Positions 22,224 to 35,676 of a stretch of DNA of 64,000 nt are shown one piece after another. This DNA is from Tepidanaerobacter acetatoxydans Re1. Its GTDB lineage: Bacteria; Bacillota; Thermosediminibacteria; Thermosediminibacterales; Tepidanaerobacteraceae. The stretch lies in assembly GCF_000328765.2 (NCBI RefSeq), contig NC_019954.2, forward strand, positions 1,306,501-1,370,500, in the 5' to 3' direction. The notes under the pieces were generated by a model that was not told the origin of the DNA, made no database searches, and saw only the letters and a list, made by a program, of their open reading frames with translations. The stretch's first letter is position 1, and the number at the start of each line of letters is the position of its first letter. Position numbers and translations under genes: made by a program.

Positions 22224-24404
22224 ATGGCAAAATCAACACAAAATATTAAAAATACAAAAAGCGATATTCAGTGGGAAATTAACGGACTTCTTTTAATTTC
22301 ATTTGGAGTGCTTGGGATTTTTTCAATATATACCAATGCCGTTGGCGCAGTAGGAAACTTTATAAGTAAAAACTTCAAGGGATTTGCAGGTCAAGCTGCT
22401 GTATTAATCCCTATACTAGTAATTCTTGCAGGAGTGTACTGCTTATATTATAAGAAAAAACCAAATATATCCTTCCGAACAATTGGACTTCTTATTATTT
22501 TTACAGTAACGGTCTTATTGATCCATTTAAAACCTCATGCAAACATGATCGAAAAGAATTTTATAAATCGATTGAGAACAAGTGCTGATATAGGCGTTGA
22601 AGGAGTTGGTGGTGGGATTTTAGGCGAAATAGGTTTGTCATTCCTAATAAGTATTTTTGGCACTACCGGATCTACGATACTGATGATTACTTTTGTAATT
22701 ATAGGTATTATCTTGATTACCGGAAAGCCGCTAACGGGTTTAATACAAAAAATAAAGCCATCTATTAAAAATAAGAACATTCCAATAAACCCACCATCTC
22801 AAAATAAAAATATAAAAGTTATAACTAATATGATTGATGAATCTTCTGTTTGCGAAAACGATAATAGGGGAATAGAAGAAGATGCCATTTTAAAAAACCG
22901 GGAAGAAAATCAAACTAAAAAGTTGGAAAAAGATAGAGAAGTTAAGGAAGAACCAATTATTATAAATGGCGACAATGACGAGGAAAAAAAATACAAACTA
23001 CCTCCCGTATCTTTGCTGCATAAAAATACTATCAAACAAGGTGGTTTCAGTGAAAAAGAATTATTAAACAGTGCACAAACACTCGAAAACACATTAGAAA
23101 GTTTTGGCTTACAGGCGAAGGTAATACAGGTTAATTGCGGCCCAACTATTACGAGGTTTGAAGTGCAGCCGTCTCCAGGCACAAAAGTTAGCCGAATTGT
23201 TAACTTAGCAGATGATATAGCTTTAAGCTTGGCTGCCTCTGATGTTAGGATAGAAGCTCCTATTCCCGGAAAAGCAGCAATTGGTATAGAAGTTCCAAAC
23301 AAAGCTAAATCTCCTGTATATTTACGAGACGTACTAGAATCGACAGAATTTCGTACATCCATATCCAAATTGACTATAGCGTTGGGTAAGGACATAGGTG
23401 GAAATCCTATGGTTACAGATTTGTCAGAGATGCCTCATCTTCTAATTGCAGGAGCAACCGGTTCAGGCAAAAGTGTTTGTATAAATTCAATTATTTCCAG
23501 CATTTTATACAAAGCTTACCCTAATGAGGTAAAGTTTATGATGATAGATCCAAAGGTTGTCGAATTGGCAGTATATGATGGTATACCACATTTATTAACT
23601 CCTGTAGTCACAGATGCTAAAAAGGCTGCTGTGGCACTAAATTGGATGGTAACAGAAATGGAAAGAAGGTACCAAGCCTTTGCGAAAGAAGGTGTCCGAG
23701 AAATAGCAAGGTATAATGAAGTAAACAATGAAAAGCCAATGCCTAAAATATTGGTAATAATTGATGAATTAGCTGATTTAATGATGGTTTCTCCACGGGA
23801 AGTCGAAGATAGCATATGCCGGCTTGCTCAGATGGCAAGAGCTGCCGGTATACATTTGGTGGTGGCTACTCAGAGACCCTCTGTAGACATAATAACAGGT
23901 CTGATTAAGGCTAATATTCCATCTAGAATTTCCTTTGCTGTCTCTTCACAAATAGATTCTAGAACCATACTTGATATATCCGGTGCCGAGAAACTACTTG
24001 GTAAAGGAGATATGCTTTTCTTTCCAGTTGGGGCATCTAAGCCAACTAGAATTCAAGGGGCTTATATATCAGAAGAAGAAGTTGAAAATTTGGTAGATTT
24101 TAGCAAGAAACAAAGAGAACCTAAATACGAAAAAAATCTTTCCGACTTTAATGAAATAGAGGTTGATAATAAAAGGCATGAAGAATCTGATGAGTTATTC
24201 CATGAGGCTGTATCATTGGTGTTGGATAGCGGTCAGGCTTCTATTTCTATGTTGCAACGGAGGTTAAGAATAGGATATGCCCGTGCGGCAAGACTTATCG
24301 ATGAAATGGAGGAATGCGGATTTATAGGCGGATATGAAGGTACTAAACCTAGGGAAATCTTAATTACCAAAGAATATTTCGATGAATACATTAATAACCA
24401 ATAA
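22224..24404 (+). CDS. ftsK: FtsK/SpoIIIE DNA translocase
   Basis: 726-residue hexameric DNA pump for chromosome segregation, at the division or sporulation septum. Four transmembrane segments (about 25-180), a charged linker (about 190-270), the motor domain with Walker A GATGSGKSVC (about 410) and Walker B VIIDELADLM, and a C-terminal winged-helix gamma domain (from about 655) that reads DNA polarity sequences. ATG 22224, 7 nt after GAGGTG, is preferred over an upstream in-frame start that would add a 25-residue extension overlapping the terminator region. Confidence 0.95.
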   Translation: MAKSTQNIKNTKSDIQWEINGLLLISFGVLGIFSIYTNAVGAVGNFISKNFKGFAGQAAVLIPILVILAGVYCLYYKKKPNISFRTIGLLIIFTVTVLLIHLKPHANMIEKNFINRLRTSADIGVEGVGGGILGEIGLSFLISIFGTTGSTILMITFVIIGIILITGKPLTGLIQKIKPSIKNKNIPINPPSQNKNIKVITNMIDESSVCENDNRGIEEDAILKNREENQTKKLEKDREVKEEPIIINGDNDEEKKYKLPPVSLLHKNTIKQGGFSEKELLNSAQTLENTLESFGLQAKVIQVNCGPTITRFEVQPSPGTKVSRIVNLADDIALSLAASDVRIEAPIPGKAAIGIEVPNKAKSPVYLRDVLESTEFRTSISKLTIALGKDIGGNPMVTDLSEMPHLLIAGATGSGKSVCINSIISSILYKAYPNEVKFMMIDPKVVELAVYDGIPHLLTPVVTDAKKAAVALNWMVTEMERRYQAFAKEGVREIARYNEVNNEKPMPKILVIIDELADLMMVSPREVEDSICRLAQMARAAGIHLVVATQRPSVDIITGLIKANIPSRISFAVSSQIDSRTILDISGAEKLLGKGDMLFFPVGASKPTRIQGAYISEEEVENLVDFSKKQREPKYEKNLSDFNEIEVDNKRHEESDELFHEAVSLVLDSGQASISMLQRRLRIGYARAARLIDEMEECGFIGGYEGTKPREILITKEYFDEYINNQ

Positions 24405-31188: not shown

Positions 31189-31217
31189 TTGACTTGATTC
31201 ATTTATATTAATATAAT
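31189..31217 (+). promoter_or_regulatory. recA promoter
   Basis: TTGACT (31189-31194), 17-bp spacer, perfect TATAAT (31212-31217). Starts 10 bp after the thpR stop codon and is the best match to the SigA consensus in the window. Confidence 0.85.
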
Positions 31218-31225
31218 ATATTAAA

Positions 31226-31237
31226 GAACATATGTTT
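31226..31237 (+). promoter_or_regulatory. LexA (SOS) box upstream of recA
   Basis: GAAC-ATAT-GTTT matches the Gram-positive LexA consensus GAAC-N4-GTTC at 7 of 8 fixed positions. It begins 8 bp after the -10 box, over the expected start of transcription, where bound LexA would block initiation. Confidence 0.75.
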
Positions 31238-31249
31238 GGAGGTTTATAA

Positions 31250-32287
31250 ATGGCTGAAAAAGAAAAAGCTTTAGAAATGGCTATTACTCAAATTGAAAGG
31301 CAATTTGGCAAAGGTTCGATAATGAAATTAGGAGAAGCTGCAGCAAGATTTAATATAGAAGCTATTTCTACCGGCGCTCTACCTTTGGATATTGCTTTAG
31401 GTGTAGGTGGAGTTCCTAGAGGTAGGGTGATAGAAATATTTGGTCCTGAATCTTCAGGGAAAACTACTGTAGCACTGCATATAATTGCCGAAGCACAGAA
31501 GGGCGGAGGCACGGCCGCATTTATTGATGCTGAACACGCACTTGATCCCACTTATGCAAAAAATCTAGGAGTGAATACGGATGATTTATTAATATCTCAG
31601 CCCGACACAGGTGAGCAAGCATTGGAAATAGCAGAAACTCTTGTCCGAAGTGGAGCTGTTGATGTTGTAGTTATTGATTCGGTGGCAGCTCTTGTTCCAA
31701 AGGCTGAAATAGAGGGCGAAATGGGAGATGCACACGTGGGCTTGCAAGCAAGACTTATGTCTCAAGCCTTAAGGAAACTGTCAGGGGCAATCAGTAAATC
31801 TAATACGGTAGCTATCTTTATAAATCAGCTCAGGGAAAAGGTAGGTATAATGTTTGGAAATCCTGAAACTACTCCGGGAGGCAGAGCTCTAAAATTTTAT
31901 TCTTCAGTGCGTTTAGATGTAAGAAGAATTGAAACACTAAAACAAGGCGAGGAAATGCTCGGAAATAGGACGAGGGTTAAGGTAGTAAAAAATAAAGTTG
32001 CTCCTCCGTTTAAACAGGCAGAGTTTGATATAATTTATGGCGAAGGAATATCAAGAGAAGGATGCGTGTTAGATTTTGCTGTAGAAGAAGGCCTTATTCA
32101 AAAAAGCGGTGCATGGTACTCGTATGGAAAAGAAAAAATTGGTCAAGGTCGGGAAAATGCCAAACAATATTTAAGAGAGCATCCGGAAATTTTACAAGAT
32201 GTAGAGTTGCAAGTAAAACAAAAACATAATTTGATTAAATCTGAATCAACTAATGAAAAGGATGCTAAATCTAAAGAAGGAGCTTAA
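31250..32287 (+). CDS. recA: Recombinase RecA
   Basis: 345-residue recombinase that forms filaments on single-stranded DNA, drives strand exchange and triggers LexA self-cleavage. Walker A GPESSGKT (residues 65-72), Walker [14 protein letters not shown]2 region with [15 protein letters not shown]. No intein, normal length, lysine-rich tail. ATG after GGAGGTTT. The start of the SbcD-like gene follows its stop by 1 bp, so the nuclease genes should share its SOS control. Confidence 0.98.
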
Positions 32288-32288
32288 T

Positions 32289-33284
32289 ATGAGAATCCTT
32301 TTTTTTACCGACACCCACATCCGCGGCACTAATCCACAAAACAGGACAGATAACTTTTTGGAGACTTTGTATCAAAAAATAAGAGAAGTTTTTGATATTG
32401 CTCAAAAAAATAACGTTGATGTGCTGTTGCATGGTGGAGATATTTTTGATCGGCCAGATATTGCACCTTCCTTAGCTCGGGAATTTGTGCTTTTGATAAA
32501 TAAATATTCTTTACCTGTTTACGCCGTAGCAGGTAATCATGATATATATGGACAGAATCCGCTCACTTTAAACCGAACTATGTTAGGTCTGTTAGACGGA
32601 GCTGATGTTGTTAAGTTAATAAAACCTGGCGAAAAACTATATTTCATGGCAGACGATAAAAAAATACAACTCACAGGTCAGCATTATTATTATGGCATTG
32701 ATGCTGATGATGAAAAAAAAGGTTATATAATAAAAAAAGATCCAGGTTCTGATATTGCTATACATATGGTTCATGGAATGCTTTTAGAAAAACCATTTTT
32801 TGAAGGTATGGCATATACGTTAATTGATAACATACTTGAAACTGAAGCTGATATAACTTTGAGCGGTCATTACCATACTGGTTTTGGCACCAAATGTATT
32901 AATGAAAAATACTTCATAAATCCGGGAAGCTTAGTGAGAATCAATAATAGTTTAAATGAGCTTTTGAGAATTCCTAAAGTGATAATTTTGGATATTGAAG
33001 ATGAAATAAAAGTACAAGAAGTCTATCTTAAGAGTGCGATGCCGGGTGAAGATGTGCTGGATCGGTCGAAAGTTGAAGCATTGGCCTTCAGAGATAAAAA
33101 ACTTTCAGAGTTTATACAAAGTGTTTATTCAACGGGTCAGTATGATACTTTTGATATTAATCGCATTATAGAACAGATTTCAAAACAAGAAAACTTAAAA
33201 GATGAAGTAGTCCAAGAAGCCTTGAAGAGAATCGGCAGAGCTCAAGAGCTATTAGGGAGTGAAAGTAACCTAGAGGTGAATTGA
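32289..33284 (+). CDS. SbcD/Mre11-like metallophosphoesterase
   Basis: 331 residues. Motifs of the calcineurin-like nucleases in order: FFTDTHIRG (1), GGDIFDRP (2), GNHDIYG (3), HMVHGM (4), and SGHYHTGFG (5), so the two-metal site looks complete. A C-terminal helical region could form the ATPase-binding part. ATG 32289 follows AAGGAG inside the end of recA. Directly followed by the two halves of a Rad50/SbcC-like ATPase, so it is most likely the nuclease of an SbcCD/Mre11-Rad50-like complex for DNA ends. Confidence 0.85.
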   Translation: MRILFFTDTHIRGTNPQNRTDNFLETLYQKIREVFDIAQKNNVDVLLHGGDIFDRPDIAPSLAREFVLLINKYSLPVYAVAGNHDIYGQNPLTLNRTMLGLLDGADVVKLIKPGEKLYFMADDKKIQLTGQHYYYGIDADDEKKGYIIKKDPGSDIAIHMVHGMLLEKPFFEGMAYTLIDNILETEADITLSGHYHTGFGTKCINEKYFINPGSLVRINNSLNELLRIPKVIILDIEDEIKVQEVYLKSAMPGEDVLDRSKVEALAFRDKKLSEFIQSVYSTGQYDTFDINRIIEQISKQENLKDEVVQEALKRIGRAQELLGSESNLEVN

Positions 33285-33285
33285 T

Positions 33286-34728
33286 TTGGGGTTAATAAAA
33301 AGCCTTAAACTGAAAAATTTTCAATCACATAAAGAAAGCCAAATTGATTTTGATGAGGGCCTTACGGTAATATTAGGTCAGACGGACCAAGGTAAAAGTG
33401 CTATTATAAGAGCTCTGAAGTGGGTTTTATACAACGAACCGCGAGGAACGGATTTTATAACAGCAGGTTCTAAATTTTGTCAAGTTACCTTAGAGATGGA
33501 AGATGGTTCAATAATAATGCGGGAACGAGATGGTCAACGAAATCGATATATATTAGTACAAAATGGGCAAGAGCAGGTTTTTGAGGGATTTGGCAATAGT
33601 GTTCCTTTGGAGATAACAAGCGCTCATGGCATACCAAAGATAAATATTGACAGAGACGCTACTTCAGCGGCAAATCTTGCAGAACAACTTGAAGCTCCCT
33701 TTCTTATATCAGAAAGCGGAAGTAATAGGGCTAAAGCATTAGGCAGACTTGTTGGAATTCATATTATTGATGCTGCACAGAGAACTACTCTAAAAGATAT
33801 ATTTGATGCTGAACAACGGCGCAAAGTGCTATACAAGAATATAGAGAACTTAAATAATGAACTTCTATCATATCAAGATATTGATACAATAGCAGAAAAA
33901 ATATCTAATCTTAATGATGCTTTGAAAAAATTGAAACAAAACAAAATTAGTTTGGCAAAATTAATACAGATGCGCCAAGAGCTTGAATCGGTGGATTGTG
34001 AAATTGAAAAAAATAAAAGTATATTGCTTAAACTTGATTTTATAGACAGAATGGAAACTAATGTTACGTTAATCGATGCATTATATGTTAAGCATCAATA
34101 TTTATTTGGGTTAACAAGGAAATTAAAGCAAGTCATCGATTCTGAAAAAATTGAACAAGATATTATAAGTGTTACACAAAGTCTTGCATTAATAGAGAAT
34201 TCTTATTTCACTATTTTAGAGTTAAATAAAACATTAAGTCAATTGATAAGTTTTAATAATAATTTTAAAGATAATGACAAAAGCTTAAAACATGTAAACA
34301 TAATCTTAGGCAAAACTCAGGATGTTTTTAATGCAGAAAAAAAATTATTAGAATCACAAAAATTGATGGAAATAGCAAAAAAATATTTATTAATATATAA
34401 TCAATGGGAACTAGTAAACCAACAACTTGATTTTCAAAAGAAAGTAGTTGGTAAATATGGTCAACTAGAAAAAACTGAACAGTATTTAAATAGTTTAACC
34501 CAAAAATTGTCTGAGCTATTTTTGTTACAAGATACAAAGAAGTCAATGATAAATCTGGAATTATCAATAAAAAAGGGTAATGATTATTTACAAAAAGTTT
34601 TAAACAGCCTAAATAAAATGGCAAAAGAGTATAGTAAAATATTAGAAAAATTTGCGATATGTCCTACATGCTTAAAACCTATAGATGAAAAAACAACTCA
34701 AAAAATAGTTTTAGATATACTAAATTGA
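33286..34728 (+). CDS. Rad50/SbcC-like ATPase, N-terminal half ending at the zinc hook
   Basis: 480 residues. Starts LIKSLKLKNFQSHKESQIDF with Walker A GQTDQGKS (G31-S38), the N-terminal lobe of an SMC/Rad50 head, then a long coiled coil (about 175-450). It ends shortly after CPTC (C459, C462), the form of a Rad50 zinc hook. It has no Walker B or signature motif; those are in the protein encoded at 35002. TTG 33286 is 6 nt after AGAGGTGA. The gene ends cleanly with its own stop and the next gene has its own ribosome binding site, so this looks like a stable gene split and not a frameshift. Confidence 0.82.
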   Translation: MGLIKSLKLKNFQSHKESQIDFDEGLTVILGQTDQGKSAIIRALKWVLYNEPRGTDFITAGSKFCQVTLEMEDGSIIMRERDGQRNRYILVQNGQEQVFEGFGNSVPLEITSAHGIPKINIDRDATSAANLAEQLEAPFLISESGSNRAKALGRLVGIHIIDAAQRTTLKDIFDAEQRRKVLYKNIENLNNELLSYQDIDTIAEKISNLNDALKKLKQNKISLAKLIQMRQELESVDCEIEKNKSILLKLDFIDRMETNVTLIDALYVKHQYLFGLTRKLKQVIDSEKIEQDIISVTQSLALIENSYFTILELNKTLSQLISFNNNFKDNDKSLKHVNIILGKTQDVFNAEKKLLESQKLMEIAKKYLLIYNQWELVNQQLDFQKKVVGKYGQLEKTEQYLNSLTQKLSELFLLQDTKKSMINLELSIKKGNDYLQKVLNSLNKMAKEYSKILEKFAICPTCLKPIDEKTTQKIVLDILN

Positions 34729-34756
34729 TTTATTTAAGAGGTAAGAGGTGAGGAAG

Positions 34757-34999
34757 ATGGATCCGGAAAAAGAAATTCATGAATTAAAACAAAAAATAGA
34801 TAAGGCCAAGGCTATGAGATACAAAGCAGAAGCACGTTTGGAAGAACTGCAAAAACAAAGGCAACTTATTCTTGATGAACTAAATAAGCTAAATGTAAAA
34901 CCTGAAAATTTAGATATGGAGATCGAAAAAATTAGCAACGAAATCAAAGATTTATTAAAAAAGACAAAAGAGTTACTTCCTGAAAACTTAGAGGTGTAA
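34757..34999 (+). CDS. Small coiled-coil protein between the split ATPase halves
   Basis: 80 residues, almost entirely heptad-like and highly charged (KEIHELKQKIDKAKAMRYKA and similar), with no Cys and no recognised family. Start ATG 34757 is 5 nt after AGAGGTGA; an in-frame GTG at 34748 lies in the ribosome binding site. It lies 28 bp after the N-half and 2 bp before the C-half gene. By position it may supply coiled coil or bridge the two ATPase halves; this is inference. Confidence 0.7.
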   Translation: MDPEKEIHELKQKIDKAKAMRYKAEARLEELQKQRQLILDELNKLNVKPENLDMEIEKISNEIKDLLKKTKELLPENLEV

Positions 35000-35001
35000 A
35001 T

Positions 35002-35676
35002 ATGATTGAGGATCTAGATGGGATTATAGCTACTATTGAAAAATATACTCAGCAACTAATTATAGAATATAGTGTAAAAAAAAGCATTAAAGAAAAGCTT
35101 GAAAATGAGTTAACTATTAAACAAAACGAGCTTGAACAAGCAACAAATCTAATTGATATATTAGAGCAGGTTAGATTTCTTCTGCAGCGAACATCCGAAT
35201 ATGCCCGAGAACAAATAAAACAACAAATCGAAATGTTAGTTACTCACTGTTTGCAATTCGTTTTTGGCCCAAATCTTGAATTTGAAATTGAACTGAATGA
35301 GGTACGTGGTAAAGCGAATGCCGAATTTTATGTTATATCAACTTACGATGATGTAAAAATTAAAACGAAACCCCAAGATGCGAGGGGGGGCGGAATTGTT
35401 GATGTTATATCGTTAGCACTTAGGATAGCAGTTATTCAAAGTACTAATGCATATAAAGAAGGACCTCTGATTTTGGATGAACCTGCTAAACATGTCAGCA
35501 ATGAATATATAGGCAATGTGGCACAATTATTGAAACAAATAAGCGATATTTTTCACCGCCAGGTAATTATGGTAACTCATAATCAGTACTTAAGTGAAAT
35601 AGCTGATCTTGCATATAAAGTAGAATTAAAAAATGGAGTTAGCGAGGTTGTGGTATACAATAGATTAGAACAGTAG
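35002..35676 (+). CDS. Rad50/SbcC-like ATPase, C-terminal half
   Basis: 224 residues. Coiled coil (about 1-90) leads into the C-terminal lobe of an ABC/Rad50 head: a signature-like ARGGGIVDVISLALRIA (A127 on; usual LSGGE replaced by RGGG), Walker B PLILDEPAKHVS (D159, E160) and an H-loop VTHNQYLSE. It has no Walker A, so it can hydrolyse ATP only with the protein encoded at 33286. ATG with AGAGGTG. A terminator follows, ending the recA-nuclease unit. Confidence 0.82.
   Translation: MIEDLDGIIATIEKYTQQLIIEYSVKKSIKEKLENELTIKQNELEQATNLIDILEQVRFLLQRTSEYAREQIKQQIEMLVTHCLQFVFGPNLEFEIELNEVRGKANAEFYVISTYDDVKIKTKPQDARGGGIVDVISLALRIAVIQSTNAYKEGPLILDEPAKHVSNEYIGNVAQLLKQISDIFHRQVIMVTHNQYLSEIADLAYKVELKNGVSEVVVYNRLEQ

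Follow-up and report, generated by a model that had tools for sequence, protein, structure and literature searches.

A probable split Mre11-Rad50 (SbcCD-type) complex encoded behind recA and in phages

Introduction

Rad50 is regarded as a single long polypeptide folded back on itself at its hook. Here we describe four adjacent genes that, read as a whole, very probably encode a split Mre11-Rad50 (SbcCD-type) complex: a phosphoesterase (MP), the N-terminal and C-terminal halves of a Rad50-type ATPase (N and C), and a small helical hairpin protein (S) encoded between the two halves. The window, meaning the whole stretch of 64,000 nucleotides that was analysed, belongs to a Thermosediminibacterales genome consisting of a single contig of 2.76 Mb. 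Among named organisms, the nearest relative found is Tepidanaerobacter sp. EBM-38, whose C is 98% identical. The literature searched, in which coverage of subscription journals was thin, yielded no account of a split Rad50.

The locus behind recA

The gene order in the window is recA-MP-N-S-C, followed by rny, with the following features.

31189..31217, + strand: TTGACT-17-TATAAT ahead of recA, promoter-like by consensus match alone (11 of 12 bases)
31226..31237, + strand: LexA-box-like GAACATATGTTT directly after the promoter-like site, the sole exact match within the window
31250..32287, + strand: recA, first gene of the presumed operon
32289..33284, + strand: MP, SbcD/Mre11-like metallophosphoesterase of 331 aa with motifs DTH, GGDIFD, GNHD, HGM and GHYHTG
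33286..34728, + strand: N, N-terminal half of a Rad50/SbcC-type ATPase, 480 aa, TTG start
34757..34999, + strand: S, helix-loop-helix protein of 80 aa, its gene directly before C in nearly all loci
35002..35676, + strand: C, C-terminal half of a Rad50-type ATPase, 224 aa
35830..35862, + strand: intrinsic terminator-like site, the sole one found on this strand between recA and rny

MP, N, S and C are intact reading frames, each with its own ribosome-binding site, as originally predicted. Only a 1-base gap separates the recA stop from the MP start, and an alternative GTG start at 34748 would lengthen S to 83 aa. A promoter-like site and GAACATATGTTT stand upstream of recA, and 14 of the 19 relatives compared have a similar GAACnnnnGTTY site there; together these suggest that recA-MP-N-S-C is likely an SOS-type operon under a putative LexA site.

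That the halves are the remains of a recently broken sbcC, a single gene cut by frameshifts or stops and now decaying or mis-sequenced, is hardly credible. N and C together do correspond roughly to a short Rad50, and both lie in the same frame within the window. However, the same split boundaries recur in about 100 distinct loci, spanning 45 genera and many phages; the reading frames start properly, a conserved gene separates the halves, active-site residues are strongly conserved, and the fusions are derived. This conservation refutes both recent breakage and a sequencing frameshift, the latter already dismissed in the original prediction. Close relatives of the window locus, which would be fused had a single gene recently broken, are all split, and the sole all-in-one fusions are derived ones.

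Two halves of a predicted Rad50-type head

The motifs of the ATPase are shared between the two halves as follows.

33376..33399, + strand: Walker A GQTDQGKS, N residues 31-38
34660..34671, + strand: zinc-hook motif CPTC, N residues 459-462, 18 residues before the C-terminus
35383..35394, + strand: altered ABC signature RGGG, C residues 128-131, serine replaced by glycine
35464..35484, + strand: Walker B PLILDEP with catalytic Glu160 of C; D159 and E160 present in 144 of 144 sequences
35578..35580, + strand: H-loop His193 of C, conserved in 136 of 144 sequences

The motifs first read from the letters are all in place: G31-S38 and C459/C462 in the 480-aa N, and D159/E160 and H193 in the 224-aa C, which has no Walker A. 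N matches PF13476 (AAA_23) at 3.7e-19, archaeal Rad50 profiles over positions 1-260, and phage family phrog_16465 at 2.2e-70 over nearly its full length. C matches phage family phrog_15167 at 8.9e-56, also nearly full length, as well as the final part of Rad50 profiles. For both halves, the solved structures related by sequence are archaeal Rad50s. Curated Rad50/SbcC cut-offs lie well above these scores (63 bits for N against 847 for NCBIfam Rad50).

Structure prediction supports, computationally, the closing of N and C into one composite Rad50-type head. The AlphaFold model was of a single chain (N, the read-through linker and C; 114 aligned sequences, mean pLDDT 80.9, pTM 0.57), which the shared frame of the two genes allows; the 91-aa linker is part of neither protein, and the N-S-C alignment A8 was likewise built with in-frame read-through rows. 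In this model, the linker is disordered (pLDDT < 50) and the lobes, mostly at pLDDT 85-98, close into one head that superposes on P. furiosus Rad50 with Z 27.9 and an rmsd of 3.1 A over 295 of 311 residues. Rad50 folds are matched at Z 25-28, SMC heads at Z about 28 and E. coli SbcC at Z about 24, so the joined N and C are predicted to have the Rad50/SbcC head fold. An ATPase whose lobes assemble in trans had been proposed, with S completing the arm: the first part is supported by the joined-chain model, and the share given to S is not supported as worded.

The split system resembles Rad50/SbcC (archaeal Rad50, E. coli SbcC, T4 gp46) in its composite ABC head, Walker A and B, Q- and H-loops, CxxC hook and adjoining nuclease gene. 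It differs in having two chains cut just past the hook, an extra subunit S, a signature changed from serine to glycine, and an arm made up of ~45-residue units, to which C adds a short helix, and it scores far below curated cut-offs. In the P. furiosus Rad50 catalytic-domain crystals (1f2t, 1ii8), the A and B chains are also separate, like N and C; those chains, however, are a laboratory construct made from one natural chain, whereas N and C are natural separate proteins.

The RGGG motif, previously called signature-like, can now be placed more exactly: it aligns with the Rad50 LSGG, and its missing serine is a family trait. The aligned position reads R/N-G-G-G, with glycine in place of the Rad50 serine in about 142 of 144 sequences. 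C thus departs from the serine-bearing Rad50/SbcC signature (LSGGE), which a relative in the same class with full-length SbcC does carry. Substitutions of the signature serine have been reported as harmful in Rad50 of P. furiosus, yeast, human and T4 (PMC7247530), which suggests that ATP-driven engagement of the split head may differ or be weaker.

The phosphoesterase

MP matches PF00149 (Metallophos) at 8.6e-18 and the phage SbcD-like family phrog_100 at 2.1e-17. Phosphoesterase motifs I-V are present across its family, with the D, H, GD, GNHD, HG and GH columns invariant or nearly so (alignment A3), and the alignments show the catalytic residues of both MP and C to be intact. Like SbcD/Mre11, MP combines metallophosphoesterase motifs with a C-terminal helical tail, and in some relatives it is fused to N or to N and C. 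Unlike SbcD/Mre11, it forms a family of its own, scoring 41.3 bits where curated SbcD membership (TIGR00619) requires 77.65, and it is encoded directly behind recA, unpaired with a full sbcC. MP relatives at 29-37% identity also occur on large plasmids of Paenibacillus, Brevibacillus, Geobacillus, Alkaliphilus and Jeotgalibacillus.

The arm and the small protein

The arm lies almost entirely in N.

33757..34650, + strand: N arm, residues 158-455, six helices, several of ~45 residues, with short breaks

In model numbering, the helices run over 157-193, 198-246, 253-296, 299-342, 346-389 and 393-454, followed by the hook. The long coiled coil originally described for N is thus a helical arm, refined to a row of ~45-residue helices separated by short breaks. 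CxxC is found near the C-terminus in 132 of the 141 N sequences examined, being absent from armless fusions, from Microbacterium phage Magritte and from fragments, and the chain usually stops 5 to 25 residues beyond it; by this motif, the CPxC of N qualifies as a putative zinc hook.

Arm length differs among relatives in ~45-aa steps, with C and S nearly constant in length. Walker-A-to-hook distances cluster near 383, 428 and 473-483, and hydrophobic autocorrelation over 73 divergent N arms peaks at lag 47. No Pfam family reports these ~47-residue helical units in N arms. A Rayleigh test for a 45-aa period of arm lengths gave 54 as the best period, with a p-value made meaningless by relatedness and the small number of clusters; the stepped lengths are drawn solely from the distance clusters and the lag-47 peak.

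The single chain and antiparallel two-stranded arm with apical hook of Rad50/SbcC are not seen here: nearly all relatives have two genes, and the arm helices are unequal. In the model, C contributes one helix of about 90 residues, partly within the head. The N arm holds ~290 helical residues against ~155 in S and C together, some of the latter also within the head, so the original suggestion that S completes the arm as a second strand is not supported. Since the N arm helix far exceeds what C and S can pair with, the arm would double back on itself, pair with that of a second N chain or stay partly single-stranded.

S itself is predicted to consist of two helices of 42 and 25 residues, a helix-loop-helix upheld by a second model, and it matches phage family phrog_18563 at 5.1e-05. 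Some distant phage loci give no match to the S model; in these, a coil-like reading frame of 75-90 aa usually lies directly before C. The S gene accompanies N and C in nearly all loci and, by genome search, was undetectable in all three genomes whose MP-N-C fusion has neither coil nor hook; on these grounds, S seems reasonably likely to belong to the arm or hook region as a subunit. It is rather unlikely that S is instead non-structural, acting as a regulator, assembly chaperone or DNA-end adaptor beside a real N-C ATPase. S is indeed short, and no homology between it and the N arm was seen with hhalign (probability 3%, which also leaves S as a copy of an arm unit unsupported), but it is a two-helix coil whose gene stands just before C wherever the S model matches. 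Its loss from detection in the three genomes also speaks against this alternative, although none of these points tells a structural arm partner from a regulatory one.

One MP-N fusion (L202:4645-6960) runs 138 residues past its hook, CPLC, in a locus where no separate S gene was found. This segment may hold S fused behind the hook, but the S model did not bear this out: it scored 7-10 bits there, no better than coil control segments, which reached 9.6.

With S as an arm or hook subunit, the system may tentatively be described as a three-subunit Rad50, combining a two-chain head with a serine-free GGG, a one-chain arm of stepped length that has no partner strand, and a dedicated hairpin subunit S on which the arm or hook would depend and which is lost with the arm.

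Distribution and gene order

A sample of 398 genomes from the phylum (267 genera) contained 65 with C, spread over 45 genera. Of 26 genomes of the class, 19 have C, and S lies directly before it at every such locus. The order recA-MP-N-S-C occurs in Thermosediminibacterales and Tissierellia, and extends to rny in Tepidanaerobacter, Thermosediminibacter, Thermovorax, Fervidicola, Anaeromonas, Thermohalobacter and Anaerosalibacter. Phages have N-S-C-MP, or more fully N-(x)-S-C-(x)-MP in phages and prophages of Bacillus, Paenibacillus, Brevibacillus and others. The search for this gene order in other genomes, suggested at the outset, thus finds the same set conserved in the class, the phylum and phages. 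Outside the sampled phylum, what is known of its spread comes from phages, plasmids and a handful of named Bacilli contigs.

Individual loci vary. Bacillus phage vB_BboS-125, for example, carries MP, N, S and C, with MP (326 aa; L028:8965-9945, NC_048735.1 about 22423-23403) lacking annotation in the GenBank record. An AP2-domain protein is encoded between its N and S (L028:7125-7697), and many other phages have extra sequence there. In Magritte, the N and C halves lie tens of kb apart in the linear record (L029:1839-2891, L083:284-934); its N is short and has no CxxC, and no S-like gene lies directly before C, a single case that agrees with co-loss of S and the arm. A lone C stands behind a folD-like gene in a Clostridia MAG (L048:7824-8489), with MP, N and S not found nearby. 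Some genomes (G094, G131 and G311) possess the split module in two distinct copies (L123/L149, L131/L132, L150).

Fusions and origin

In a midpoint-rooted tree of MP, the N head and C, the recA-linked loci form one clade of 27 loci (support 0.91-0.95). Other chromosomal loci with MP first adjoin it, and phage clades lie around both; with midpoint rooting, a direction from phage to chromosome can only be suggested.

Two kinds of fusion were found. MP is fused to N, with C separate, in six viral contigs (769-805 aa), including L194, and L190 also has an MP-N fusion. A single-chain MP-N-C fusion of 684-700 aa occurs in three genomes of one family (L111-L113); it consists of MP, N-head and C-head, with coil and CxxC absent. 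The fusions tie MP, N and C together as one unit. The MP-N-C fusions are nested within split loci that bear S (support 0.991), which indicates that the fusion derives from the split form and that S went along with the arm and hook.

The viral contig L194 is a candidate for Bacillus phage 0305phi8-36, both being 218,948 long (PMC12474458). Yoshida et al. (2011) described an Mre11/Rad50 fusion in this phage in which one P-loop segment was not observed (PMC3175470). The missing half was left unidentified in that study; in L194, C lies about 1 kb downstream with S before it, and C is read as the P-loop segment missing from that fusion. The fusion proteins of Yoshida et al. also differ from those in L111-L113, where coil and hook are wholly lost.

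Relation to full-length SbcC

Searches of the source genome with PF13476, TIGR00618 and TIGR00619 detected no full-length SbcC, a search raised with the original prediction, and no second SbcD; TIGR00618 gave no match at E 1e-8, and the remaining PF13476 matches above the family cut-off fall in SMC-, RecN- and RecF-sized frames. Within the class, a full-length TIGR00618 match is present in none of the split genomes versus three of seven non-split ones. In the wider sample, full-length SbcC occurs in 2 of 53 split genomes versus 23 of 53 without the split set (Fisher p 1.4e-6, a guide only, as the genomes are related). The two genomes with both (G120, G397) carry the phage order N-S-C-MP (L124, L130).

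Since full-length SbcC is rare in split genomes, the split set seems to stand in for SbcCD. This replacement is a correlation across related genomes made with an SbcC model of modest sensitivity, which recovered 10 of 14 control genomes at the threshold used and found no match in 30 of the 53 split-negative genomes.

It is improbable that the module, instead of substituting generally for SbcCD, is a chromosomally retained nuclease of phage type that serves counter-defence or replication. Phage and prophage versions do surround the chromosomal clade in the midpoint-rooted tree, and phage copies lie within replication and recombination clusters. In the window lineage, however, the module is fixed between recA and rny across two large groups; it is absent from class genomes with full-length SbcC, and it follows recA behind a promoter-like and a LexA-like site.

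Proposed mechanism

In a split SbcCD-type complex, the ABC head would be divided between the halves: lobe I would come from N, along with the modular helical arm and its CPxC hook, and lobe II from C, which bears the signature, Walker B and the H-loop and would add one short helix to the arm. By analogy with the Rad50 family, two composite heads would sandwich two ATP, two hooks would be joined through zinc, and an MP dimer at the base of the arms would cut DNA ends, hairpins or blocked ends upon ATP use. Gene order and co-loss suggest that S would be an arm or hook subunit, needed only where arm and hook are present. The module would do the work of SbcCD in genomes without full-length SbcC, and in the window lineage DNA damage probably induces it along with recA.

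Conclusions

If this reading is right, Rad50 is also built from parts in nature, by free-living bacteria within a repair operon and by phages. The range of forms, from modular long arms to a natural armless and hookless single chain, would provide test molecules for the role of the arm and hook in DNA-end processing. The conserved serine-free signature would call into question whether ATP-driven engagement of the heads requires this serine.
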